NCBI GenBank assembly: GCA_030386875.1
Contig: CM059562.1
Span: 72,538,201 to 72,602,200, forward strand
DNA length: 64,000 nt
Direction of reading: 5' to 3'
Source of the DNA: Morinoia aosen
Taxonomy: Eukaryota > Arthropoda > Malacostraca > Amphipoda > Talitridae
Shown here: positions 9,334-53,800 of the stretch, piece by piece
Layout: every line of letters starts with the position of its first letter
Position numbering within the stretch: position 1 is the first letter of the stretch
The notes under the pieces: model-generated
Seen by the model: only the letters and a program-made list of their open reading frames with translations
Databases searched by the model: none
What the model was told of the DNA's origin: nothing
Translations under genes and position numbers: made by a program

Positions 9334-12300
9334 CCACGTAAATAGTTGCTTGGATACGGATAGGTTTGTTTAAATAAATGTTTGGATACGATACGTATAA
9401 ATAATTGTTTGGGTAAGGCTAAGTCCATGTAAAGAATTGCTTGGATGCGGTTAGGTTCAGATAAATAGTCACTTGGATACGGCTATGTTCACATAAACAA
9501 TTGCCTCAACATGGCTATGTTCACACAAAACAATTGCCTCAACACGGCTATGTTCACATAAACAATTGGCTCAACACGGCTAGGTTCACATAAACAATTG
9601 CCTCAACACGGCTATGTTCACATAAACAATTACCTCAACACGGCTATGTTCACACAAACGATTGCCTCAACATGGCTATGTTCACACAAACAATTGCCTC
9701 AACACGGCTATGTTCACATAAACAATTACCTCAACACGGCTATGTTCACACAAACAATTGCCTCAACACGGCTATGTTCACACAAACAATTACCTCAACA
9801 CGGCTATGTTCACACAAACAATTACCTCAACATGGCTATGTTCACACAAACAATTACCTCAACACGGCTATGTTCACACAAACAATTGCCTCAACACGGC
9901 TATGTTCACACAAACAATTGCCTCAACACGGCTATGTTCACACAAACAATTACCTCAACACGGCTATGTTCACACAAACAATTGCCTCAACACGGCTATG
10001 TTCACACAAACAATTACCTCAACACGGCTATGTTCACACAAACAATTACCTCAACATGGCTATGTTCACACAAACAATTACCTCAACACGGCTATGTTCA
10101 CACAAACAATTGCCTCAACATGGCTATGTTCACACAAACAATTGCCTCAACATGGCTATGTTCACACAAACAATTGCCTCAACACGGCTATGTTCACATA
10201 AACAATTGCCTCAACACGGCTATGTTCACACAAACAATTGCCTCAACATGGCTATGTTCACACAAACAATTGCCTCAACACGGCTATGTTCACACAAACA
10301 ATTGCCTCAACACGGCTATGTTCACACAAACAATTACCTCAACACGGCTATGTTCACACAAACAATTGCCTCAACACGGCTATGTTCACACAAACAATTA
10401 CCTCAACATGGCTATGTTCACACAAACAATTGCCTCAACATGGCTATGTTCACACAAACAATTGCCTCAACATGGCTATGTTCACACAAACAATTGCCTC
10501 AACATGGCTATGTTCACACAAACAATTACCTCAACATGGCTATGTTCACACAAACAATTACCTCAACATGGCTATGTTCACACAAACAATTACCTCAACA
10601 CGGCTATGTTCACACAAACAATTGCCTCAACATGGCTATGTTCACACAAACAATTGCCTCAACATGGCTATGTTCACACAAACAATTACCTCAACATGGC
10701 TATGTTCACACAAACAATTGCCTCAACATGGCTATGTTCACACAAACAATTACCTCAACATGGCTATGTTCACACAAACAATTGCCTCAACACGGCTATG
10801 TTCACACAAACAATTGCCTCAACACGGCTATGTTCACACAAACAATTGCCTCAACACGGCTATGTTCACACAAACAATTGCCTCAACACGGCTATGTTCA
10901 CACAAACAATTACCTCAACATGGCTATGTTCACACAAACAATTGCCTCAACACGGCTATGTTCACACAAACAATTGCCTCAACACGGCTATGTTCACACA
11001 AACAATTACCTCAACATGGCTATGTTCACACAAACAATTGCCTCAACATGGCTATGTTCACATAAACAATTGCCTCAACATGGCTATGTTCACACAAACA
11101 ATTGCCTCAACATGGCTATGTTCACACAAACAATTGCCTCAACATGGCTATGTTCACACAAACAATTACCTCAACATGGCTATGTTCACACAAACAATTG
11201 CCTCAACACGGCTATGTTCACACAAACAATTGCATCAACATGGCTATGTTCACACAAACAATTGCCTCAACACGGCTATGTTCACATAAACAATTACCTC
11301 AACACGGCTATGTTCACACAAACAATTGCCTCAACACGGCTATGTTCACACAAACAATTACCTCAACATGGCTATGTTCACACAAACAATTACCTCAACA
11401 CGGCTATGTTCACACAAACAATTGCCTCAACATGGCTATGTTCACACAAACAATTGCCTCAACATGGCTATGTTCACACAAACAATTGCCTCAACACGGC
11501 TATGTTCACATAAACAATTGCCTCAACACGGCTATGTTCACACAAACAATTGCCTCAACATGGCTATGTTCACACAAACAATTGCCTCAACACGGCTATG
11601 TTCACACAAACAATTGCCTCAACACGGCTATGTTCACACAAACAATTACCTCAACACGGCTATGTTCACACAAACAATTGCCTCAACACGGCTATGTTCA
11701 CACAAACAATTACCTCAACATGGCTATGTTCACACAAACAATTGCCTCAACATGGCTATGTTCACACAAACAATTGCCTCAACATGGCTATGTTCACACA
11801 AACAATTGCCTCAACATGGCTATGTTCACACAAACAATTACCTCAACATGGCTATGTTCACACAAACAATTACCTCAACATGGCTATGTTCACACAAACA
11901 ATTACCTCAACACGGCTATGTTCACACAAACAATTGCCTCAACATGGCTATGTTCACACAAACAATTGCCTCAACATGGCTATGTTCACACAAACAATTA
12001 CCTCAACATGGCTATGTTCACACAAACAATTGCCTCAACATGGCTATGTTCACACAAACAATTACCTCAACATGGCTATGTTCACACAAACAATTGCCTC
12101 AACACGGCTATGTTCACACAAACAATTGCCTCAACACGGCTATGTTCACACAAACAATTGCCTCAACACGGCTATGTTCACACAAACAATTGCCTCAACA
12201 CGGCTATGTTCACACAAACAATTACCTCAACATGGCTATGTTCACACAAACAATTGCCTCAACACGGCTATGTTCACACAAACAATTGCCTCAACACGGC

Positions 12301-14100
12301 TATGTTCACACAAACAATTACCTCAACATGGCTATGTTCACACAAACAATTGCCTCAACATGGCTATGTTCACATAAACAATTGCCTCAACATGGCTATG
12401 TTCACACAAACAATTGCCTCAACATGGCTATGTTCACACAAACAATTGCCTCAACATGGCTATGTTCACACAAACAATTACCTCAACATGGCTATGTTCA
12501 CACAAACAATTGCCTCAACACGGCTATGTTCACACAAACAATTGCCTCAACACGGCTATGTTCACACAAACAATTACCTCAACATGGCTATGTTCACATA
12601 AACAATTGCCTCAACATGGCTATGTTCACACAAACAATTGCCTCAACATGGCTATGTTCACACAAACAATTGCCTCAACATGGCTATGTTCACACAAACA
12701 ATTGCCTCAACATGGCTATGTTCACACAAACAATCACCTCAACATGGCTATGTTCACACAAACAATTGCCTCAACACGGCTATGTTCACACAAACAATTG
12801 CCTCAACACGGCTATGTTCACACAAACAATTACCTCAACACGGCTATGTTCACACAAACAATTGCCTCAACATGGCTATGTTCACACAAACAATTGCCTC
12901 AACATGGCTATGTTCACACAAACAATTACCTCAACATGGCTATGTTCACACAAACAATTGCCTCAACACGGCTATGTTCACACAAACAATTGCCTCAACA
13001 CGGCTATGTTCACACAAACAATTACCTCAACATGGCTATGTTCACACAAACAATTGCCTCAACATGGCTATGTTCACACAAAACAATTGCCTCAACACGG
13101 CTATGTTCACACAAACAATTACCTCAACACGGCTAGGTTCACATAAACAATTGGCTCGACACGGCTATGTTCACACAAACAATTGCCTCAACATGGCTAT
13201 GTTCACACAAAACAATTGCCTCAACACGGCTATGTTCACACAAACAATTACCTCAACACGGCTAGGTTCACATAAACAATTGGCTCGACACGGCTATGTT
13301 CACACAAACAATTACCTCAACACGGCTAGGTTCACATAAACAATTGGCTCGACACGGCTATGTTCACACAAACAATTACCTCAACACGGCTATGTTCACA
13401 TAAACAATTGGCTCAACATGGCTATGTTCACACAAACAATTACCTCAACACGGCTAGGTTCACACAAAACAATTGCCTCAACACGGCTATGTTCACACAA
13501 ACAATTACCTCAACACGGCTAGGTTCACATAAACAATTGGCTCGACACGGCTATGTTCACACAAACAATTGCCTCAACACGGCTATGTTCACACAAACAA
13601 TTACCTCAACATGGCTATGTTCACACAAACAATTGGCTCAACACGGCTATGTTCACACAAACAATTGCCTCAACACGGCTATGTTCACACAAACAATTAC
13701 CTCAACATGGCTATGTTCACACAAACAATTACCTCAACACGGCTAGGTTCACACAAACAATTGCCTCAACACGGCTATGTTCACACAAACAATTGCCTCA
13801 ACACGGCTATGTTCACACAAACAATTGCCTCAACACGGCTATGTTCACACAAACAATTACCTCAACACGGCTAGGTTCACATAAACAATTGGCTCGACAC
13901 GGCTATGTTCACACAAACAATTACCTCAACACGGCTATGTTCACACAAACAATTGCCTCAACATGGCTATGTTCACACAAAACAATTGCCTCAACACGGC
14001 TATGTTCACACAAACAATTACCTCAACACGGCTAGGTTCACATAAACAATTGGCTCGACACGGCTGGGTTAACACAAACGATAGCGAAAATAAGGCTAGG
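9334..14100. repeat. 32-bp minisatellite, about 145 copies with higher-order structure
   Basis: Unit CAATTGCCTCAACACGGCTA plus TGTTCACACAAA, 32 bp. The core at 9488-14065 is nearly homogeneous, with point variants (ACACGG/ACATGG, TTGCC/TTACC, CACA/CATA). The left edge (9334-9487) and right edge (14066-14100) are degenerate. A 1312-bp (41-unit) segment is repeated: the CATAAAC variants at 10197 and 11061 recur at 11509 and 12373. The right part (13080-14050) has its own higher-order unit that includes a 33-base variant with an extra A and GGCTCGACACGG. Most units lack forward stops in all three frames, so large open frames here are artefacts. Confidence 0.97.
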
Positions 14101-14980
14101 TTCTCTAGATCAATACTCAGGTGGCGTGCGTGACCAATGGAGCACACTTCGTAAAAAATTCGAGCCGTACAGAAGTTATGCCTCATGGTGTGACTGCCAG
14201 CCTTAAAAATACCTCGCGCTCTCATGTCTCGTAAAGATTATCCATACTTCATTAATATTCAGCCTGAGGTGCCGGACAAATACCACTTAGTGTGTCTCAT
14301 CAAAGAGATTTATAAGTTAATGTTATCAGCGAGTGAGTGAAATTTGACTACATTCAGCCGTGGAAGAAAAGACTCAAAGCGTTTATTCAGGCAAAAGCCG
14401 TTTTAACTTTGCTTCGACTTTGATCTAGGAAATTTTCGATTCTGCTTGAAGTATAAGAGAGCTGTCGTGTTTTGAAGCTTTAATAACAGAAACGTTTTGC
14501 AGAGCAGTGTGGGCTGTACAAAACAGAATAGTAAAGCGCAAAAACGTCAAGTTGAAGGAAAACCTCGCAGAGTTCATAGCATAGTCTTTGAAAAGTCTCG
14601 TGTTTGCAACCACGCTACTTATTTGATGAGACTTGGCAATCCGTTCCCGACGCACGTTTTCAGTTGAAAAACAGCGTAGACGTAACAATGAATGCCTCAT
14701 TGAGCCCACAATAGATTTTTCCTTAGCCTAAAAACGCCTACAGGGAAAATATTTTTCTAATTTTTTCTCTCTAGTCGACAGTGACTTGTTTTCTGTTTCA
14801 AACGACTCGCGTTCAAATGGGGTGCGTGTCTATATATTTGAGAGTCGAGTACCCACTTGAGCATTCACTCAATCAATCACTCCATTTTTGGGCGGAGCGG
14901 TCTCTATTAATTCGTCAGACTCGAATGCAAGCTGAGCCGGACAGGCTCACTGATCCAGGATTTGTTCGTGCTGGAGGCAA
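14101..14980. other. Non-coding, nothing recognised
   Basis: Spacer between the 32-bp and 31-bp arrays. No coding feature can be supported. Confidence 0.55.
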
Positions 14981-25022: not shown

Positions 25023-25035
25023 ACTTATTATCTAT
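25023..25035. other. Target-site duplication, left copy of the PLE
   Basis: ACTTATTATCTAT, 13 bp, immediately outside the left arm of the Penelope-like element. It is repeated exactly at 28095-28107. PLE insertions typically make short duplications of this size. Confidence 0.85.
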
Positions 25036-25524
25036 TGTGAAATGAAATTCGTATTCAGCTGGAAAATATTATTTTCTGTCGAGCTTTCGAAATTTTAAAC
25101 AAATTTCATTTTCAGGACAAGAGACTGAAGTTTTTGGAAGCAAAGTTATGGCCAGGGCAGGTATCCTGGATACAAGGGAAGGATATTACATATAAGATAA
25201 ACGAAAGCGGACATCGGTGGAACATGCAGTAGTCACAGTAATTATTTCAGTAGTGGTTTATAAACATCCGGAATTGAGAGATATCTATTGTAGGAGTTTG
25301 AATTAGTTGTGGAATAGAATGCTTCTAAGTATCTTCTTTCTTTCTTGTTGGAATTTTGAGATATATTTTAATAATTTTGAAAATCTATTTTGTGACCCGT
25401 GTCCCGAACATGTTAGTAAACTAAAGAATTAATTTGCTATTTTTCCACATTTTGGCAATGTTCATTGACACGAATTTTTAAATTCCTGCAAGTTTCCACG
25501 ATATACACTTATTAACAATTTTTT
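25036..25524 (-). repeat. PLE left inverted arm
   Basis: Begins TTGTGAAATGAAATTCG and is the reverse complement of 27571-28059 with about 8 mismatches. It therefore carries an antisense copy of the C-terminal endonuclease coding region. A TGA at 25466 closes the internal frame upstream. Confidence 0.93.
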
Positions 25525-27861
25525 TTGTAACTGTGCTTTTCATATTTTGTAACTGTGCTCGGCATCGTAAGGACTAGTGACCGCGAGAGAATAACTGAAG
25601 TTTAATCTTCGATGTAAGAAAAACAATGTTTTACCAAAGTCTCTCAGATTTAATCCCCCGATTAAAACTCAAGAAGCTTATTGCATTGCACAAGAATCAG
25701 GAAGAAAATACTTGAAATGTTTTATCAAAGATGACCATTACCGAATCAAAAAATATTAATCTATAGTGAACGAATTGAAAAATATTTTATCGCTCCAATT
25801 GCCACAGGTTCTGTGGTAGCAACTGAGTGAAACTGTTACCTAAAAAATTAACCGAAAGCAAGACGAAACTAAACAGAAACTTATCATCAAATATAATTAA
25901 TTATCAAGCAGCCGGAATACTGAACGGTATAATTCTCAATGGGTAGAGAACTTGTCCTCTCGAAATCTAAACAACGATGAATTGATATTACTCTCAAAAG
26001 GATTAAACTTTGGATTAAACCATACGAAGTAAGACAAATTAAAACTTCTGGCAACTACGGAATCTGTAATCGATGACCTCAAAAATATCACTTTTGAACA
26101 TAAATAAGACATCCGCAACTAAGTCGTATCTGCAATAAAAAGTGCTTAAGAAGTGGAAAATCTATCAGCGGGAGAAAAACAAGCAATAAAAAATCTATAA
26201 ACTGATTCATCCATAGTTATTGTGTCAGCTGACAAAGGTCGAACAACAGTGGTTTTAGATAAAGAAGACTATTAATAAAAAATCTAAAATCATCTCTCCG
26301 ACAATCTAACGTACGTGGAAATTTAGACCAACCCAATTCAACAACTAAAAAACCAAGTAAATTAAAAACTAAAACTCCTCAAAGATAGGAAAAAAATTAC
26401 TCCCGAACTATACCGGAAACTTTACTGCAGCTCAGCAACAATCCCTCGATTTTATGGCCTGATCAAGCTGCATAAGGAGGGATATCCCATTAGACCCATT
26501 GTATCTTTTTGTGCATCACCCACACATGAGCTATCTAAATTTTTATCTTCAATTATAAACCCATTAACAAACAGAGCTGAGCAAAAGTTAAAAAATTCCT
26601 TACAAATGAAGGAAGCAGCCTAAGACCTCATCGTCCCTGAACATTGCATGATGGTTTCTTTCGACGTGAAAGCTCTCTTCACCTCCATCCCTCAAGAATT
26701 GGCCCTAACAAGCGTGGAACGACTTCTCAACGAAACTGATGAGTGGAAAAACAACACTTAATTGTCCAAAGAGGATATATTAAGTTTAGTTCAACTATGT
26801 TTATCGTCGACAGTCTTCTAGCAAAATAAGAAAATTTATAAACAAATTAAAGGCACACCAATGGGAAGTAGCGTGTCCGTAGCAATTGCCGAGGCTACAA
26901 TGTAAAACATTGAAAATGAGATCTTTGAGCACTCCAGTAGCTAAATTATGTTTTGGAAAAGATACGTTGACGATGTGTTTGCAATAGTTCCCAAAAACAC
27001 CGTCGATGATTTAAACAACTAGCTAAACTAAATTAACGCTAACATTTAATTCACGATCGAAAAGGAACAAAATAATTCTATCGCTTTTTTGGACTTAAAA
27101 ATTACAAGAATGGAAGACAACTCCCTCAGTTTTGGAATTTAGAGAAAACCAACCCATACCGGACGATACCTCGATTTCTCTTCAAACCATCCTAATAAAT
27201 ATAAACGTAGCGTTGTTGATTCCATAGTTAGTAGAGCCTTGCAATTGTGTAGTAATGATTAAGTCGAAAATGAACAAAAATTTATTAAAGAGTAGCTACA
27301 AAAAACGGATACCAAGAAAAAATGATCAAATAATCAATCAGAGAACTAAAAAATCCGCGATAAAATATTAGCCAAAATTAGAACCCAAAAATTAGCTATT
27401 TTAGTGCCCCTTATGTAAAAGGCACATCTGAACGTGTCAACAGGATACTCCGGCCATTCAATGTGCAAATAGCAAAGAAGTCAATTAACCTGATAGGAAG
27501 AAATTTATCAAAAATTAAAGACAAACAAGCACCTGAAGACCGTTGCGATGTAGTGTACAAATTAGATTGTAAAAATTGTTAATAAGTGTATATCGGTGAA
27601 ACTTGCAGGAATTTAAAAATCCGTGTCAATGAACATTGCCAAAATGTGGAAAAATAGCAAATTAATTCTTTAGTTTACTAACATGTTCGGGATACGGGTC
27701 ACTAAATAGATTTTCAAAATTATTAAATTATATCTCAAAATTCCAACAAGAAAGAAAGAAGATACTTAGAAGCATTCTATTCCACAACTAATTCAAACTC
27801 CTACAATAGATATCTCTAAATTCCGGATGTTTATAAACCACTACTGAAATAATTACTGTGA
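25469..27861 (+). CDS. PLE reverse transcriptase/GIY-YIG endonuclease, needs UAA/UAG as sense and one +1 correction
   Basis: Reverse transcriptase and nicking endonuclease of a Penelope-like element. It would copy its RNA at a cut chromosomal site. In order: an N-terminal stretch around [16 protein letters not shown] (from 25631); NLSSRNL and LLSKGLNFG (from about 25952); SADKG (26225); [15 protein letters not shown] (26465); [19 protein letters not shown] with the first catalytic Asp (26651); [24 protein letters not shown] with the catalytic DD (about 26960); [17 protein letters not shown]; then [14 protein letters not shown] and [17 protein letters not shown] (GIY-YIG). The frame ends at TGA 27859. 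It holds 31 TAA and 8 TAG but no internal TGA. One base is missing in the A run 27300-27305. No in-frame ATG exists before 26606, so the start is unknown; the coordinate given is the first codon after the upstream TGA. About 797 residues, the usual PLE size. Confidence 0.82.
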
Positions 27862-28059
27862 CTACTGCATGTTCCACCGATGTCCGCTTTCGTTTATCTT
27901 ATATGTAATATCCTTCCCTTGTATCCAGGATACCTGCCCTGGCCATAACTTTGCTTCCAAAAACTTCAGTCTCTTGTCCTGAAAACGAAATTTGTTTAAA
28001 ATTTCGAAAGCTCGACAGAAAATAATATTTTCCAGCTGAATACGAATTTCATTTCACAA
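27571..28059 (+). repeat. PLE right inverted arm
   Basis: Inverse partner of the left arm. Its first 290 bases are coding (GIY-YIG region through the terminal TGA at 27859). The rest is untranslated and ends ATTTCACAA. Confidence 0.93.
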
Positions 28060-28094
28060 CAATGGAACCTGGATGTCCGCTATTTCAACTAATA
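28060..28094 (+). other. PLE 35-bp terminal tail
   Basis: Lies between the right arm end and the right target-site duplication and has no equivalent on the left. Short one-sided extensions of about this length are known from Penelope elements. It shares GATGTCCGCT with the arm sequence at 27879-27888, so part of it may be a short template-repeat product. Confidence 0.65.
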
Positions 28095-28107
28095 ACTTAT
28101 TATCTAT
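28095..28107. other. Target-site duplication, right copy of the PLE
   Basis: Exact 13-bp repeat of 25023-25035. Confidence 0.85.
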
Positions 28108-44800: not shown

Positions 44801-47800
44801 GTCACGCAATTGAATAAAGAGTTCATTTGTCAATTCATTCCTGCAGCTCGAGCGTCACGTGGGAGACTGAGCGTAGTGTAGCATGGGTGAGCGATAAATG
44901 CTGGTGTGGTGTCTGCAATTATTGTGTGATGCTTTGGCTACAGTTATTGCGTGATGTGGTGGCTACAGTTATTGTGTGATGTGTTGGCTATAGTTATTTG
45001 TGTGATGCGGTGGCTGCAATCATTGTGTGATGTGGCGGCTACAATTATTCTGTGATATGGTGGCTACAGTTATTCTGTGATATGGTGCTACAATTATTCT
45101 GTGATATGGTGGCTACAATTGTTGTGAGATGCGGTGGCTACAATTATTGCGTGATGCAGGGGCAGCAATTAATGGGTTGTGGAGTTAAAATATACAAAGT
45201 TTTATTAAGTCAAAAAATTTAATGCGTGATGTAATCGAAGCATTTAATTTGTAATGCCTGACATTAGCTTTAAGTTCATATTTATGAAGGCAGCATAAGT
45301 TCTTAGTGTGTTTAAGAGCATTATGCCAATTTCCATTTTCTTTTCATGATTCAAGGTAGACAAGAATATTTTATACGACCAGAAAGCGTTCGTTGCGCGC
45401 TCAGTTTTGGACCAGACTGCTACCGGGTGCCTTTCATTTGAAATGCCATTTATGAGCATGCATACTATGCTTCAAAGTTATAATTCAAACATTGCCTTCT
45501 GGAGAGAAATTTTTGAAATAAATTCCACTACTTTCGAGCGACTTTTTAAAAAGTTCCTGAATGAATATCAGCTTCCGTATTTGTTTCATCACGACCGAAT
45601 TATATTTCACAAGGTCTTCTCAACAAACTTAATGTTACGCACATTTTCATCAATGTTAAGTTTGTTGTGATATTTAATATTTATGCACTGTATCGTGCCG
45701 TGGAGTAGTGATGCAGAATTTAATTCCAGCTAAGCCTCAAGCGTATCCGATTCATGCATTCAGAGATCCCAACAAAGTGTAAGCTGCTGGCGCACTCGGT
45801 TTAGTTAAAATTATGAAACTTCGCTGGAATAATGTCTATCTCAGTGACACGGAAGAGTACGAACGATTTTAAAATTTACAATTAATTTGTTGTAGGAAAA
45901 GTTAGGGCTGTAAACTATCATCTTCATTATTGCCAATCAACATTTTTAACTACTACAATTTGAATATTGTTTCGCTGTTAATGGGAATTTTTGGTAACTA
46001 TCATTTTTATTTCAATGCTAACGAGCATTTTAATTGCTGTCATTTGATTCTGATTTCAATGCTAATGATAATTTAGTATACTGTCTCTGAAATTTTATTT
46101 GAGTGCTAACGAGCATTTTTAGTAACTGTCATTCGAACTTCGATACTAATGAGCACTTTAGTTATCGTAATTTGAATTTTATTCCGTTACTAATGAGCAT
46201 TTTTGGTTACCGTACTTTGAATTTGATTTCAATGCTAATGAGCAATTTAATTACTATCAATTGAATTTGATTTCGATGCTAGCGAGCATTTTAGTTACTG
46301 CCATTCGAATTTTATTCCATTGCTAACGAGCGCATGCCATCTTAATTTCTACTTCTGCTCCACGGAAGGTGTCTTGGATGCGTAACCGCGACCTGCACGT
46401 ACTGACGGTGGGCGCGTTCAGCTTCACGTCAGATGAGCGGTTCAGTGCGCACCGGGACACCATCACCAAGGACTGGGTGCTCATCATCCAGCACACCGGC
46501 CTCGAGGACTCCGGCGACTACGAGTGCTCCGTGCCCACCAAACCTGTCACTTCGCACACCGTCCAGCTTAGGGTCTTGGGTGAGTGGTGGCGTCTGGGAC
46601 TTTGTGGTTGTTGCAGTTGTTACCTCGTACACCGTCTAGCTTAAGGTCTTGGGTGAGTGGTGGCGTATGGGACTTTGTGGTTGTTGCGGTTGTTACCTCG
46701 TACACCGTCTAGCTCAAGGTCTTGGGTGAGTGGTGGCGTCTGGGACTTTGTGGTTGTTGCGTTTGTTACCTCGTACACCGTCTAGCTCAAGGTCTTGGGT
46801 GAGTTTTGGCGTCTGGGACTTTGTGGTTGTTGCGGTTGTTACCTCGTACACCGTCTAGCTCAAGGTCTTGGGTGAGTGGTGGCGTCTGGGACTTTGTGGT
46901 TGTTGCGGTTGTTACCTCGTACACCGTCTAGCTCAAGGTCTTGGGTGAGTGGTGGCGTCTGGGACTTTGTGGTTGTTGCGGTTGTTACCTCGTACACCGT
47001 CCAGCTCAGGGTCTTGGGTGAGTGGCGGCGTCTGGAACTTTACGTTGTTGCGGTTGTTACTTTAATTGTGGCGAGCATTCTATGTTCGTGGATCCTTTCT
47101 AGGGAGTTTAGAAATAAACCATAGTGTATCATTGCCAAATTTGAAAATATGCAAGGACTATAAAAACCAGAGGTCGTATGGAGTCGAAACAGAGTCTAAA
47201 ACGTTAAAATCGGCAAGAGATATCGGGACATTGTATATCACAGCACATTTTTCTAAATTACTTCTTGACTTCAATCATTTTATGTGCGTTGCAAAACTTC
47301 AACCATTGCATATCGGTGCCAAACGTTCATCTTTTAACCGTTAGCAGTGTATATGAATGGCCAGTCTTCACCCATTGCATATCAGTGGCAAACTTTAATC
47401 TTTAAACTTTAGCAGTGAATATGAATGGCCAAACTTTAACTTTTAACCTTTAAGAGTGTATGTGAGTGGCCAAACTTTAACCTTTGACAGTATATATGAG
47501 TAGCCAAATTTTAACCATCGCATATGAGTGCGAAACTTTAACAGCGTATATGAGTGGCCAAATTGAACATCTTTCGATTGCCTCGCCTGGCGCCCGCAGT
47601 GCCGCGCACGGAGCTGATAGGCACCGCTGAGGTGCACCTGGAGCGCGGGTCTTCCTTGAATCTGACCTGCCTCGTGCACGACTCTCCGGCGCCTCCCGAG
47701 TTCATCCTCTGGTACCACAAGGACAAGGTGAGCAAATTTCGAAACTTGCATGACAACGCGTCAGGAAATCTCGTTCACTCAAAGCCAGAAGGATTTGAGT

Positions 47801-50800
47801 GAAATATTGGCCCTACAAGTGTCTATATTCAATATGACCATTGTACTATAGAGTTAAGAACAATCTACTAATGTATCGCTTGCGGTAAATAAATTGTTTA
47901 CATTTTTAAAATTGTTTAGCTGTGAAATTTCATTTTGGATATAAATTATTTTTAGGGGATTTACAATTTTTTTATTTTGGGGGCTTGAAGTTTGATTTAC
48001 TTCAGAGAGATTTTTAGATAGGATTAGATATGATTTTGAAATATGATCCTCTGACTTTGCCTACCGGGCTTAAATTTTGCGTGAATTTCAGACAATTGTG
48101 ATTACTTCAAACATAGAAGGAAATTTTATGTTTTTTATTTAAAAGGTAAAAAAATTAAAACTAAGGAAAACAAAAATTAAAAGTTAAAGTTAAGGCAAAA
48201 AAAAAATTAAAATTTAACTTACCTTTTTTCCATTATTATCAATAAATCAATATTTCTGATTATTAATTTTTTCTGTACTGTTACGAACGTCATGGGTAGA
48301 GATTGTTATCAAAAAGCACCTGGAAAAAGAATTTAATTTAGAAAGAGTGTACGTACAAACTCTTAATACGTTAACTATTTGTGCCTAAAAATGAAATTTA
48401 AATTAAGCACTTATGGAATATTAATTCAAGATCTGTTTTTGAAATTATTTAGCGCACATTTGGTGAGTTTTTTTCGAGCCAATTTTAGTATTACACCTTC
48501 AAAAAATATAAAAAATATTGGTGGCGCAGCTGCAGTTACAAATTAGCCTCCCGAATTCCTAGGTTTATAAATTTTCTGAAAGCTGAATATATCATTTTAT
48601 GAATTTTCCAATTCGTAGAGTTCTATTAGCCATTTCTTATTGCACATGAATGCTGCAAATATTTATGGTTCAGAATCAGCAATGATTCTTGAAATAAATT
48701 CTACCGATATTTATTAGAAACTTTAAATTATGGTCGTGAAGGATTTACAACCTGAGTAAAATCCACACGCGCGACAACACGAAACTCCGTCTACTTATTT
48801 GTCTTTTGCTTATAATACGAACAAACCTTAATTTTGTCAGCTGAAGTCCAATATTCGCTTCTCACATCAAATGAATTTAGAGGATTGCCTCGCGAAGCCA
48901 ATAAATAAAAAACATTAAATTTGAATGATGCCAAGCGGTAAAATTATTTAAATTATGTTGATTTTCACCACTTGAAGGAATTGAAACTTCCCATTTTCAT
49001 CAAGTTCAAAAGTAATACTTTATACTGTTATTGCATATACTTAGTTATTAGTTACTGTTGGGTAACTTATTGAGCAATTGGTACTGAATACAAGGCATGA
49101 GTAAAAATAACATAATAGGTCATTGTTACCTATAAACAATCATGTTATCGCAGAGTAAAAATCACACAACAAACCGTTCTCAACAAATTAAGGGCAATGA
49201 ATTGTGCCGTCATGACCAATTCATAAAAGAAAAATTGAGCTCGTGTCACTAAGGAAAAATCAAAAGTCACCCAGCCATCACAAAGAATTTGCACACTGCA
49301 CTGTTGTCACCGTTTAAAAAGCAACAAATTGCACTGTTATCAACAAGTGAAAGAAACAAATAATACCGTCACCCCCATTCCACAAGTGACAAATCACACC
49401 GTAGCTACCATCTCAAAACCAACACACCACACCGTAGCCACCATATCAAAAGCAGCACCCCACACCGTAGCCACCATATTAAAGCAACGTGCCACAACGT
49501 AGCCGCCATATCAAAAGCAGCACCCCACACCATAGCTACCATCTCAAAACCAACACACCACACCGTAGCCACCCCATTAAAGCAACACACCACACCGTAG
49601 CCAACATATCAAAAGCAACACCCCACACCATAGCCACCATATTAAAGCAACGTGCCACACCGTAGCCACCATATCAAAAGCAGCACCCCACACCGTAGCT
49701 ACCATCTCAAAACCAACACACCACACCGTAGCCACCATATCAAAAGCAGCACCCCACACCGTAGCCACCATCTTAAAACCAACACCCTACACCATAGCCA
49801 CCACATTAAAGCAACACACCACACCGTAGCCACCATCTCAAAACCAACACACCACACCGTAGCCACCATATCAAAAGCAGCACCCCACACCGTAGCCACC
49901 ATCTCAAAACCAACACACCACACCGTAGCCACCATCTCAAAAGCAGCACCCCACACCGTAGCCACCATATTAAAGCAACGTGCCACAACGTAGCCGCCAT
50001 ATCAAAAGCAGCACCCCACACCATAGCTACCATCTCAAAACTAACACACCACACCGTAGCCACCCCATTAAAGCAACACACCACACCGTAGCCAACATAT
50101 CAAAAGCAACACCCCACACCATAGCCACCATATTAAAGCAACGTGCCACACCGTAGCCACCATATCAAAAGCAGCACCCCACACCGTAGCTACCATCTCA
50201 AAACCAACACACCCCACCGTAGCCACCATATCAAAAGCAGCACCCCACACCGTAGCCACCATCTTAAAACCAACACCCTACACCATAGCCACCACATTAA
50301 AGCAACACACCACACCGTAGCCACCATCTCAAAACCAACACACCACACCGTAGCCACCATATCAAAAGCAGCACCCCACACCGTAGCCACCATCTCAAAA
50401 CCAACACACCACACCGTAGCCACCATCTCAAAAGCAGCACCCCACTATAGCCACCATATTAAAGCAACGTGCCACACCGTAGCCACCATATCAAAAGCAG
50501 CACCCCACACCGTAGCTACCATCTCAAAACCAACACACCACACCGTAGCCACCATCTCAAAAGCAGCACCCCACACCATAGCCACCATATTAAAGCAACG
50601 CGCCACACCGTAGCCACCATATCAAAAGCAGCACCCCACACCGTAGCTACCATCTCAAAACCAACACACCACACCGTAGCCACCATCTCAAAAGCAGCAC
50701 CCCACACCGTAGCCACCATATTAAAGCAACGTGCCACAACGTAGCCACCATCTCAAAAGCAGCACCCCACACCGTAGCCACCATCTCAAAACCAACACAC

Positions 50801-53800
50801 CACACCGTAGCCACCATATCAAAAGCAGCACCCCACACCGTAGCCACCATCTCAAAACCAACACACCACACCGTAGCCACCATATCAAAAGCAGCACCCC
50901 ACACCGTAGCTACCATCTCAAAACCAACACACCACACCGTAGCCACCATCTCAAAAGCAGCACCCCACACCGTAGCCACCATCTTAAAACCAACACCCTA
51001 CACCATAGCCACCACATTAAAGCAACACACCACACCGTAGCCAACATATCAAAAGCAGCACCCCACACCATAGCCACCATATTAAAGCAACGTGCCACAC
51101 CGTAGCCACCATATCAAAAGCAACACCCCACACCGTACCTACCATCTCAAAACCAACACACCACACCGTAGCCACCATCTCAAAAGCAGCACCCCACACC
51201 GTAGCCACCATCTTAAAACCAACACCCTACACCATAGCCACCACATTAAAGCAACACACCACACCGTAGCCAACATATCAAAAGCAACACCCCACACCAT
51301 AGCCACCATATTAAAGCAACGTGCCACACCGTAGCCACCATATCAAAAGCAACACCCCACACCGTAGCTACCATCTCAAAACCAACACACCACACCGTAG
51401 CCACCATCTCAAAAGCAGCACCCCACACCGTAGCCACCATCTTAAAACCAATACCCTACACCATAGCCACCACATTAAAGCAACACACCACACCGTAGCC
51501 AACATATCAAAAGCAACACCCCACACCATAGCCACCATATTAAAGCAACGTGCCACACCGTAGCCACCATATCAAAAGCAACACCCCACACCGTAGCCAG
51601 CGTTTCAACAGCAGCTGGTCACACTGAGACCACCCAGAAAACCAGCGACCTTTCCTCTGCAGCTGGTGAACTACGGCAGCAGCAGCGGCTCCATCAGCAG
51701 CGGGAGCAGCACAGGCAGCCCGGGGGCAGCGCGGGTGCGGGTGCAGACGAGCCACCAGCGCGACACGTCCCGCTCGTCGCTGCTCGTGCAGAACGCGACC
51801 ACGCGAGACTCTGGCCGGTATCACTGCGAGCCTTCCAACGCTCCCAAGGCTGTCGCGCTCGTGCATGTCATTCCCAGTGAGTCGTGTGGCGCAGAGTTGC
51901 TGTTCTGATGGGATGCTGCGCTGTGTTGCTTTTTGCTTGGGTGTTGCGCTGTCTTGCTTTATGGTTCGGATGTTGTGCAGTGTTGCTTTTTGTTTGGATG
52001 CTGCACTGTGGTGTTTTTTGTTTGGATGTTCCACTGTGTTGCTTTATGTTTGGATCTTGCGCTATGTTGCTTATTTGTTTGGATGTTGTGTAGTGTTCCT
52101 TTTTTGATTGGAAGTTGTGCAGTGATGCTTTTTTGGATGTTGTGCCGTGTTGCTTCTTTGTTTGGAAGTTGCGCTGTGTTGCTTCTATGTTTGGATGTTG
52201 CGTAGTGCTGCTTTTTTGTTTGGAAGTTGTTCCGTACTGCTTTTTTGTTTGGATGTTGTGCGGTGTTGCTTAACTGCTCGGATATTGCGCAGCTAAGCTT
52301 TTTGTTTGGATATTGCGCAGTGTTGCTGAAATTCGTTTGCAAGTTATGAGGCTGTGTTGATGGTTTCATTCACGGAAAAATTGACTTAATGTTTAATTCT
52401 ACTATATAAAATAGAATATGCAAGAAATTGAAGGATATTTTACGTACATATAAAATATAAAAATTATAATAACTAGAACGCACACTCACAAGTGAAATCG
52501 TCCTTGTTACCGTGTCGTACAAAAAGTTGGGATCTTATTAAACAGCTGTAATCAAATTTTTGAGAACATCACAGTGCTAACGAGGGGATTCCTTTTTTAT
52601 TTCCTAAATCATTTTGCCATTGAAAGGCAATCACCGTACCCTGGAGAAAGGAGTTGTTTATAGGTTCAAAAATTTCCCGAGAACACACAGTTCGTCTAAA
52701 AATTCGCTTCCAGAATTCGTGCAGTCAATTTCATCTTCACTAAAAACAACCACTGGTAGTTATGCAATTTTTGAAAAAATTCGAAAAATTTTGCTAAAAA
52801 GTTGAATTGACATTCAAGTTTTCATGGTAAACAAGTCCTTGAATCCGTTCGAAAACATTTATTGGATCGAAGCGACAATGCCTGATCATCGGGGCGATGG
52901 GCGGTCTTGTTTACCTCGTTTTGGTGCAGTAAAAATAGTGATTGCTTTAGGCCACGTTCCTGTTTTGGAACAGAGATCTTTCGTTCCCTGATTGCGAGAC
53001 TCTTCTCACATTTGACTTGAATTGGCGTCGACAACTCACTAGAACGGATTAGCCTGAATAAAATTCGGCACACACATTTTGGCATTGATATTGACACGTC
53101 AATGATTTTGTAACTTCAGCATGGCGTCAGACCAAAGCTGATTCCCTCTCATTTTCAGTCCCGGGATGTAAAAACAACCAACATCAAAAAACATTCTAGT
53201 ACATCAATTTTAAATCTGAAGAGCTTCTTCGCTGTTTATTTTTACGTATAGAATTATGAACCGACAATGGGATGTCGTAAAATATTTGCCCCAAAACTTG
53301 GAGAAATTGAAGCACTGTATTCATGGCGTGCGATAGCTGCTGCTCTGTGAGATTCCATCATACTTAGCGATGAATGCAAGGAAATTTACACGGGATATAA
53401 TCTACGTTGAGCTTATCAAATTTCCGCAACAGTGTCATCGGTCTGAGAATTGTCTCATTGCTACCTTAACGCTACCTTAACCTGGGATTGTGTGTCTTTC
53501 TAAAGCGGGCTACGACAGAGATTTGTTCTGTCATTTGAACTTATTGTTGCCAGAAAAAATTGCTCGAAAAACATGCAGAAATTCTGAGCTGCATTTCGCA
53601 TCATAATTTATAGCATTGGGTGAACAATGAAACATTGGTTGCGTTGAATTCGCCTGATGGAATGGAAGAGAAGAGATGAAGAGCTTCAGTCTCTCACTGT
53701 CTCCGTGCCACTAGAATCTCTCTGTTTACGCACAAAATTTTAGATAAAAATAATCGAAGCAACTGCAAAGAACATGATAAAATTAAGCGCTTCGGACCAC

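Follow-up and report, generated by a model that had tools for sequence, protein, structure and literature searches.

UAA and UAG encode glutamine in Penelope-like retroelements of a talitrid amphipod whose nuclear genome carries candidate suppressor tRNA genes

A family of Penelope-like elements (PLEs) in the genome of the talitrid amphipod Morinoia aosen is written in a code in which UAA and UAG (UAR) specify glutamine and UGA is the sole stop codon. We consider it likely that the host's own Gln suppressor tRNAs, for which nine candidate genes were found on one chromosome, translate these UAR-coded elements, probably in a restricted setting. The genome searched comprised 1.99 Gb in 29 contigs, and the window, that is, the whole stretch of 64,000 nucleotides that was analysed, lies on the contig that we call C7. 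Mitochondrial COX1 of this genome is 98% identical to that of the talitrid Platorchestia sp. AKP-2018, with Haustorioides and Hyalella next at 90%, which places the host in or near Talitridae. It contains a 5'-truncated PLE, inserted at 25036-28094 and bounded by a 13-bp target-site duplication, with the following features:

25023..25035, no strand: left target-site duplication ACTTATTATCTAT, exact 13-bp direct repeat
25036..25523, minus strand: inverted copy of the PLE 3' end, at the 5' side, with 98% complementary arms
25549..27861, plus strand: PLE ORF lacking its 5' end, frameshifted by one base near 27,300, with its TGA at 27859; 31 TAA and 8 TAG codons read as Gln
26474..27034, plus strand: reverse transcriptase domain RVT_1 (E 6.3e-9)
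27550..27672, plus strand: GIY-YIG endonuclease domain (PF01541), approximate, transferred from the intact copy L004
27862..28094, plus strand: 3' UTR and extension into the start of the next unit, like the PLE 'tail' (by-eye comparison)
28095..28107, no strand: right target-site duplication ACTTATTATCTAT, exact 13-bp direct repeat

The inverted arm is 489 nt long (25035-25523 against 27571-28059, 98% complementary). An earlier reading of this DNA, made from the sequence only, had placed the start of the ORF at 25469, but 25469-25523 belongs to the inverted copy of the 3' end and lies outside the ORF; homology begins near 25549, and the first 68 nt of the L004 frame are absent. Under table 6, 25547-27325 is a single open frame of 592 aa with 28 UAR codons, and the RVT_1 span corresponds to residues 310-496 of the code-6 translation of 25547-27322. 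The GIY-YIG part is reached after a one-base shift near 27,300, where the sequence-only reading had indeed put it (in the A run at 27300-27305), and the frame then runs to the TGA at 27859. On L004 residues 691-731, PF01541 matched with E 1.5e-4 and 22.4 bits, 0.2 bit short of the curated cut-off of 22.6. Because of this one-base shift, 25469-27861 read literally contains 25 TAA, 13 TAG and 3 TGA (27323, 27491 and 27845), whereas the window copy placed in register with the intact genomic copy has 769 codons with 31 TAA, 8 TAG and no internal TGA, the same counts, with the same terminal TGA, that had been claimed. A chance open frame is excluded by the TGA load of the five other frames of L004 (11-23 each), together with the RVT_1 match and a protein relative at 51% identity. 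For the 3' end, the comparison was visual and used the corresponding parts of L004, L010 and L013. Elsewhere in the window, immunoglobulin-domain exons at 46327-46641 and 51597-51905 (V-set E 2.1e-7; ig E 1e-4) belong to the only host gene recognised within it, which is reminiscent of an arthropod DPR-type gene, and there are two large minisatellite arrays, one at 9479-14079 (32-bp unit, about 144 copies) and one at 49395-51613 (33-bp unit, about 68 copies).

The meaning of the UAR codons was read from protein relatives. When the table-6 protein was used as query, 565 of the 8000 candidates scored proved to be relatives, and the best of the 120 listed shares 51% identity over 97% of the query (E 1.6e-174). 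We take these relatives to be PLEs by characteristic motifs and the GIY-YIG domain, rather than by a database label; with RVT_1 and the GIY-YIG match of L004, they agree with the original classification of the element. The 38 UAR codons of L004 were masked as X and a profile was made from the 120 listed relatives. This profile assigned UAA to Gln with 14.8 bits (next Lys, 6.9) and UAG to Gln with 7.0 bits (next Ala, 1.5); for comparison, CAA scored 16.3 bits for Gln and 7.3 for Lys, and 54 of the 54 sense codons with at least four sites were assigned correctly. The UAR-sense code proposed by the sequence-only reading is thus upheld, with Gln as the amino acid and UGA as the stop. The Gln codons of L004 are 30 TAA, 8 TAG, 30 CAA and 4 CAG, and their UAR:CAR ratio (38:34) is close to that of TTR to CTR among Leu codons (35:27), which indicates that UAR is used freely and not avoided.

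The window protein matched 74 places in the genome, 56 of them without TGA and 18 with at least one. Forty loci, which cover part of these places, yielded 57 distinct copies longer than 600 bp that were aligned in register. Internal TGA is absent from 48 of the 57, the terminal TGA is kept in all 48 copies that extend that far, and code 6 leaves 10 of the 16 full-length copies with an unbroken frame. CAA or CAG at the 39 UAR positions in other copies, or TGA mixed in among them, had been named beforehand as a sign of decay or hypermutation of a normal element; each internal TGA proved to be confined to one copy. The 57 copies mostly agree in where UAR stands, apart from some polymorphism, UAR/CAR among it, in keeping with the earlier claim that the codons are not a product of decay. 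The copies are 95.8-99.8% identical to the reference copy, i.e. young. Full and partial copies of this family also form a dense cluster at C1:56217023-56433795.

Variation among the copies carries a trace of selection on the frame. Differences found in a single copy comprised 223 nonsynonymous, 86 synonymous and 9 to TGA, and their synonymous share fits neutrality (p=0.26). Those present in two copies were 45 nonsynonymous and 29 synonymous, and those in at least three copies 42 nonsynonymous and 48 synonymous, with none to TGA in either class; the last class departs from the singletons with p=1.3e-5 in a Fisher test that has no gene-conversion model and in which shared variants are non-independent events. 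This contrast between nonsynonymous and synonymous differences carries the argument, the TGA counts being weak alone both for singletons (9 observed, 6.0 expected) and for TGAs common to at least two copies (0 observed, 3.1 expected, p=0.044). The shared differences include CAA/TAA at codons 30, 375, 523 and 618 and TAA/TAG at 628, as well as TAA/AAA, TAG/GAG and TTA/TAA. Purifying selection on shared variants means that, in the lineage leading to the copies, selection maintained the frame as a protein gene containing UAR, whichever organism carried that lineage.

Other PLEs of this genome are UAR-rich too. Two relatives were used as queries, P0001, presumed like the rest of P0001-P0016 to be standard-coded from its database, and P0086, a Dreissena PLE, and the best 59 and best 76, respectively, of 10,983-14,416 candidates were scored. 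All 59 P0001 matches had at least 23 in-frame UAR, and 10 had any TGA; all 76 P0086 matches had at least 12 UAR, and 7 had one TGA. By identity to P0001 the matches fell into groups at 46-52% (the window's family), 41-42% and 38-39%, with one five-TGA copy of the window's family at 43%; the two lower groups are spread over many chromosomes. The UAR-rich matches form about three divergent families. Pieces of family 2 and family 3 (251 bp each) have no stop under table 6 and carry UAR where relatives have Gln, for example in TMQ and IQFT. Apart from P0016, which has only 22-26 residues in common, the nearest relatives are P0004 (67%) and P0003 (63%) for family 2 and P0003 (59%) for family 3, all over 83 residues, and P0001 and P0002 (61% over 87 residues) for the window's family. 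A full-length tree made by a quick method put P0001, P0002 and P0015 with the window's family in one supported group and P0003, P0004, P0007, P0012 and others in a separate supported group, and it also holds proteins of named animals; in another tree, made for families 2 and 3 from their 83-residue pieces, hardly any deep branch was resolved. These data suggest that recoding arose, or was kept, in several PLE lineages of one host. Scans of viral-contig and genome-contig databases gave no relatives.

The actin genes of the host follow the standard code: none of the 18 full-length matches has an in-frame stop, and among all 56 matches five partial ones carry one or two (3 TAG and 3 TGA together). 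The 20 gene ends, some of them mutually identical, comprise 15 TAA, 4 TAG and 1 TGA, so that the actins do not show the pattern of a table-6 nuclear code, in-frame UAR with UGA at the end: 19 of the 20 ends are UAA or UAG. The same was asked of reverse transcriptases, of which the best 150 of 52,382 RVT_1 candidates were scored: 135 were stop-free and 15 had one or two stops (15 UAR and 3 TGA together, none with more than two), and none of these 150 is recoded like the PLEs. One region of the assembly, C27:55-72 Mb, is dense in tRNA genes and has COX1 frames that lack TGA, and part of C26 has mitochondrial COX1 copies; both look like pooled unplaced scaffolds, partly bacterial.

Two clusters of tRNA genes with anticodons for UAR were found in the host:

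C19:16095215-16115300: tRNA cluster 1, five TTA and two CTA
C19:39308153-39321063: tRNA cluster 2, two CTA

Forty-one matches were obtained with a tRNA-Gln-like pattern that set the anticodon as YTA and tolerated one mismatch. Seven of them, which all lie on C19, have TTA or CTA, and the other 34 have the ordinary CTG or TTG. The backbone common to the seven, searched with any anticodon and up to three mismatches (reversed-pattern control, 0), returned nine genes, five TTA and four CTA, and no other anticodon (loci L071, L094, L095, L110 and L111). ARAGORN called all nine as tRNAs with anticodon tta or cta, and their Rfam scores were 66.4-72.7 bits, compared with 69.3 and 56.9 for two of three ordinary tRNA-Gln genes fetched. 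TTTT follows within about 10 bases downstream of all nine. Among the seven genes of cluster 1, the bodies are 92-100% identical in pairs and the 60-bp flanks 49-84% (shuffled sequence, 64%), the flank pairs at 79-84% looking like more recent duplicates. A paired change was seen in the acceptor stem of one gene (S5) and another in the anticodon stem of two distant genes (S8 and S9); one gene with unusual ends (S6) may be decaying. Judged from these features, the nine have the fold, anticodon and terminator, and the seven of cluster 1 also the conservation beyond the flanks, that would mark natural Gln suppressor tRNA genes, and we infer that they may be expressed and charged with Gln, translating the PLEs. 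The backbone shares 83% identity with host tRNA-Gln(ttg) and 76% with tRNA-Gln(ctg), with a last base U in common, in a comparison that covered few true host tRNAs, many on apparently bacterial scaffolds, and left tRNA-Glu aside. The cluster region has dispersed repeats in common with the window and the flanks of other PLE copies, and it is therefore host chromosome. None of the PLE matches seen stands next to these tRNA genes. By eye, a CAACACTA-like motif was noted about 26-33 bases upstream of six of the seven cluster-1 genes.

Several other explanations of UAR-coded PLEs in an amphipod have to be weighed. The elements could have evolved elsewhere under a UAR=Gln code, for instance in a ciliate that lives with the animal as an epibiont or parasite, have reached the amphipod recently and repeatedly by horizontal transfer, and be untranslatable in this host; crustaceans are common carriers of ciliates. 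The youth of the copies fits such a transfer, as do code and stop use, which match the ciliate UAR=Gln codes (PMC4695839), and UAR-coded ciliate PLEs would escape a search in proteins that are presumably standard-code predictions. However, about three divergent families would require many transfers, the proteins closest to family 1 differ from those closest to family 2, and the variation common to the host's copies was under selection, although its place may lie elsewhere. The sequence-only reading had likewise pointed to a UAR-code organism as the source, a claim that sits poorly with three or so UAR-rich families and with the host's own matching UUA/CUA tRNA genes. A condition inside the host fits the code better than a single imported element, and we regard transfer as unlikely. 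Less probable still is a burst of non-autonomous copies that were moved in trans without being translated and whose frame is intact only through youth: the copies are young and the genome has many RT-bearing elements that could have moved them, but the shared variation was under purifying selection in code 6, and the best-scored PLE matches, UAR-rich in 59 of 59 and 76 of 76 cases, include no CAR-coded helper.

Editing of the mRNA from U to C would turn UAR into CAR in the transcript and, like suppression, yield Gln and leave UGA as the terminal stop (A-to-I editing would give Trp, not Gln). It would have to be nearly complete at about 38 sites per message in an animal, it would leave the nine UUA/CUA tRNA genes unexplained, and U-to-C editing of such a kind is not known outside plants; we hold it to be very improbable. 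As for C-to-T decay of a normal CAR-coded element by CpA-directed mutation, CAA to TAA and CAG to TAG are indeed CpA to TpA changes, and yet the frame is otherwise intact in 10 of the 16 full copies, L004 keeps 30 CAA and 4 CAG beside its 30 TAA and 8 TAG, and most UAR sites recur in nearly every copy covering them, under purifying selection; we give decay hardly any weight.

The reading that we prefer, translation by the host's own suppressor tRNAs, can be put as follows. The PLEs, which are canonical GIY-YIG retrotransposons of the amphipod, would have drifted or adapted to conditions that the host offers and under which UAR is read as Gln; the nuclear Gln-like tRNAs, five with UUA and four with CUA, would do the decoding. 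Since translation has to pass all 38 UAR codons of a message, suppression would have to be nearly complete (by calculation, 90% per codon gives 1.8% full product and 50% gives 4e-12), which points to a restricted setting and not to general leakiness. Such suppression would do damage in any place where host mRNAs ending in UAR are translated; because host genes terminate at UAA and UAG, decoding must be confined, presumably to a cell type, stage or compartment, a confinement that is an assumption of this reading. The setting must also be special to PLEs, since the other scored reverse transcriptases are not recoded. In that setting, the second eRF1 of amphipods, altered at stop-recognition positions, would be a candidate factor for shutting off termination at UAR. 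That amphipods have a second nuclear code beside the standard one, in force in some cell type or stage, with Gln-charged tRNA(UUA/CUA) and a dedicated eRF1, for PLEs and perhaps some host genes, is a broader proposal that we advance as possible rather than probable. If true, two genetic codes would coexist in one animal nucleus, one of them used by a retrotransposon class, and stop-codon reassignment could be tested directly while the codons remain in use. This would also offer a mobile element a route to limit its expression to one setting, and standard-code annotation of genes and transposons would overlook such elements.

Apart from their code, these elements resemble canonical PLEs of the Penelope/Poseidon type, e.g. 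PAc of Anolis (PMC11167929): a single frame holds RT and a C-terminal GIY-YIG domain, partial copies occur both in tandem and inverted, and there are a short pseudo-LTR spacer, an optional 'tail', an extension described in the same paper, and a target-site duplication. The spacer, of about 200 bp, separates partial from full copies in L010, L013, L015, L016 and L017, the 'tail' is present in L001 and L004, and the target-site duplication (13 bp) was checked in the window copy only. A hammerhead ribozyme is common but not universal in PLE pseudo-LTRs; no hammerhead family was among the Rfam matches with E up to 5 at the single locus L010. Unlike canonical PLEs, about half of the Gln codons here are UAA or UAG, and only UGA terminates. 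Naiad PLEs of animals (Craig et al. 2021) reportedly also recode stop codons in their proteins, but there UGA is said to be read as selenocysteine and the endonuclease to be N-terminal, whereas here UAR is Gln and the endonuclease is C-terminal. The nearest parallel in codon meanings and in the anticodon pair is the ciliate UAR=Gln code (Tetrahymena tRNA-Gln UUA and CUA; PMC4695839), which also goes with altered eRF1 stop-recognition motifs, seen here in one host paralogue. In ciliates, however, the whole nuclear genome uses the code, whereas here actins end in UAA or UAG and only PLEs are recoded among the retroelements tested. Phages in which UAG is reassigned to Gln (PMC9523058) are likewise mobile genomes with a code differing from that of their host, but they are bacterial, and here the element is an animal-nucleus retrotransposon with suppressor tRNA genes apart from it. 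In line with the novelty claimed by the sequence-only reading, a literature search, with thin coverage of subscription journals and hence as a weak absence, gave no account of PLEs with an altered code, of crustacean suppressor tRNAs or of a matching amphipod eRF1.

Lastly, the genome holds a divergent eRF1 gene besides the canonical one. The canonical eRF1 exon, with the motif TASNIKS, is on C6; the match there holds one TAA, which is located past the conserved part and probably lies in an intron. The divergent eRF1 is on C16 (L109:587-1585; C16:35503100-35505300) and is an intronless gene of 333 aa with its stop inside domain 3. It is closest to proteins of Trinorchestia (87%), Hyalella (71%) and Hirondellea (69%), followed by seven further relatives at 53-67%, one of them partial, and by other eukaryotes at about 40%. 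Since Hirondellea belongs to another suborder than the host, this second paralogue must have existed in amphipods for a long time. All 10 aligned rows of the divergent clade have D, N or H directly after the Tyr of YxCxxxF, where all 5 other rows have L; the TASNIKS site begins with K or R in the divergent clade and with T in the others, the host having KSSNIKS. In yeast, the L position toggles eRF1 between UAR- and UGA-specific modes (PMC4482090), the residues given there being I and V against F, A, S and G, with D, N and H not among them. KSSNIKS is the motif listed for Blepharisma, in which UGA is sense and UAR are stops (PMC4695839), and this likeness counts against a simple UGA-only reading of the second eRF1. 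From these residues, a changed stop specificity, in either direction, is plausible. The eRF1_1 matches on C12 were considered as eRF1 duplicates and rejected, as their translations resemble Pelota. At C12:25571300-26560770 (L099-L106) there are two genes that look Pelota-like by eye. Each is present twice, about 0.94 Mb apart, and a ribosome-rescue factor may thus be duplicated in the host.
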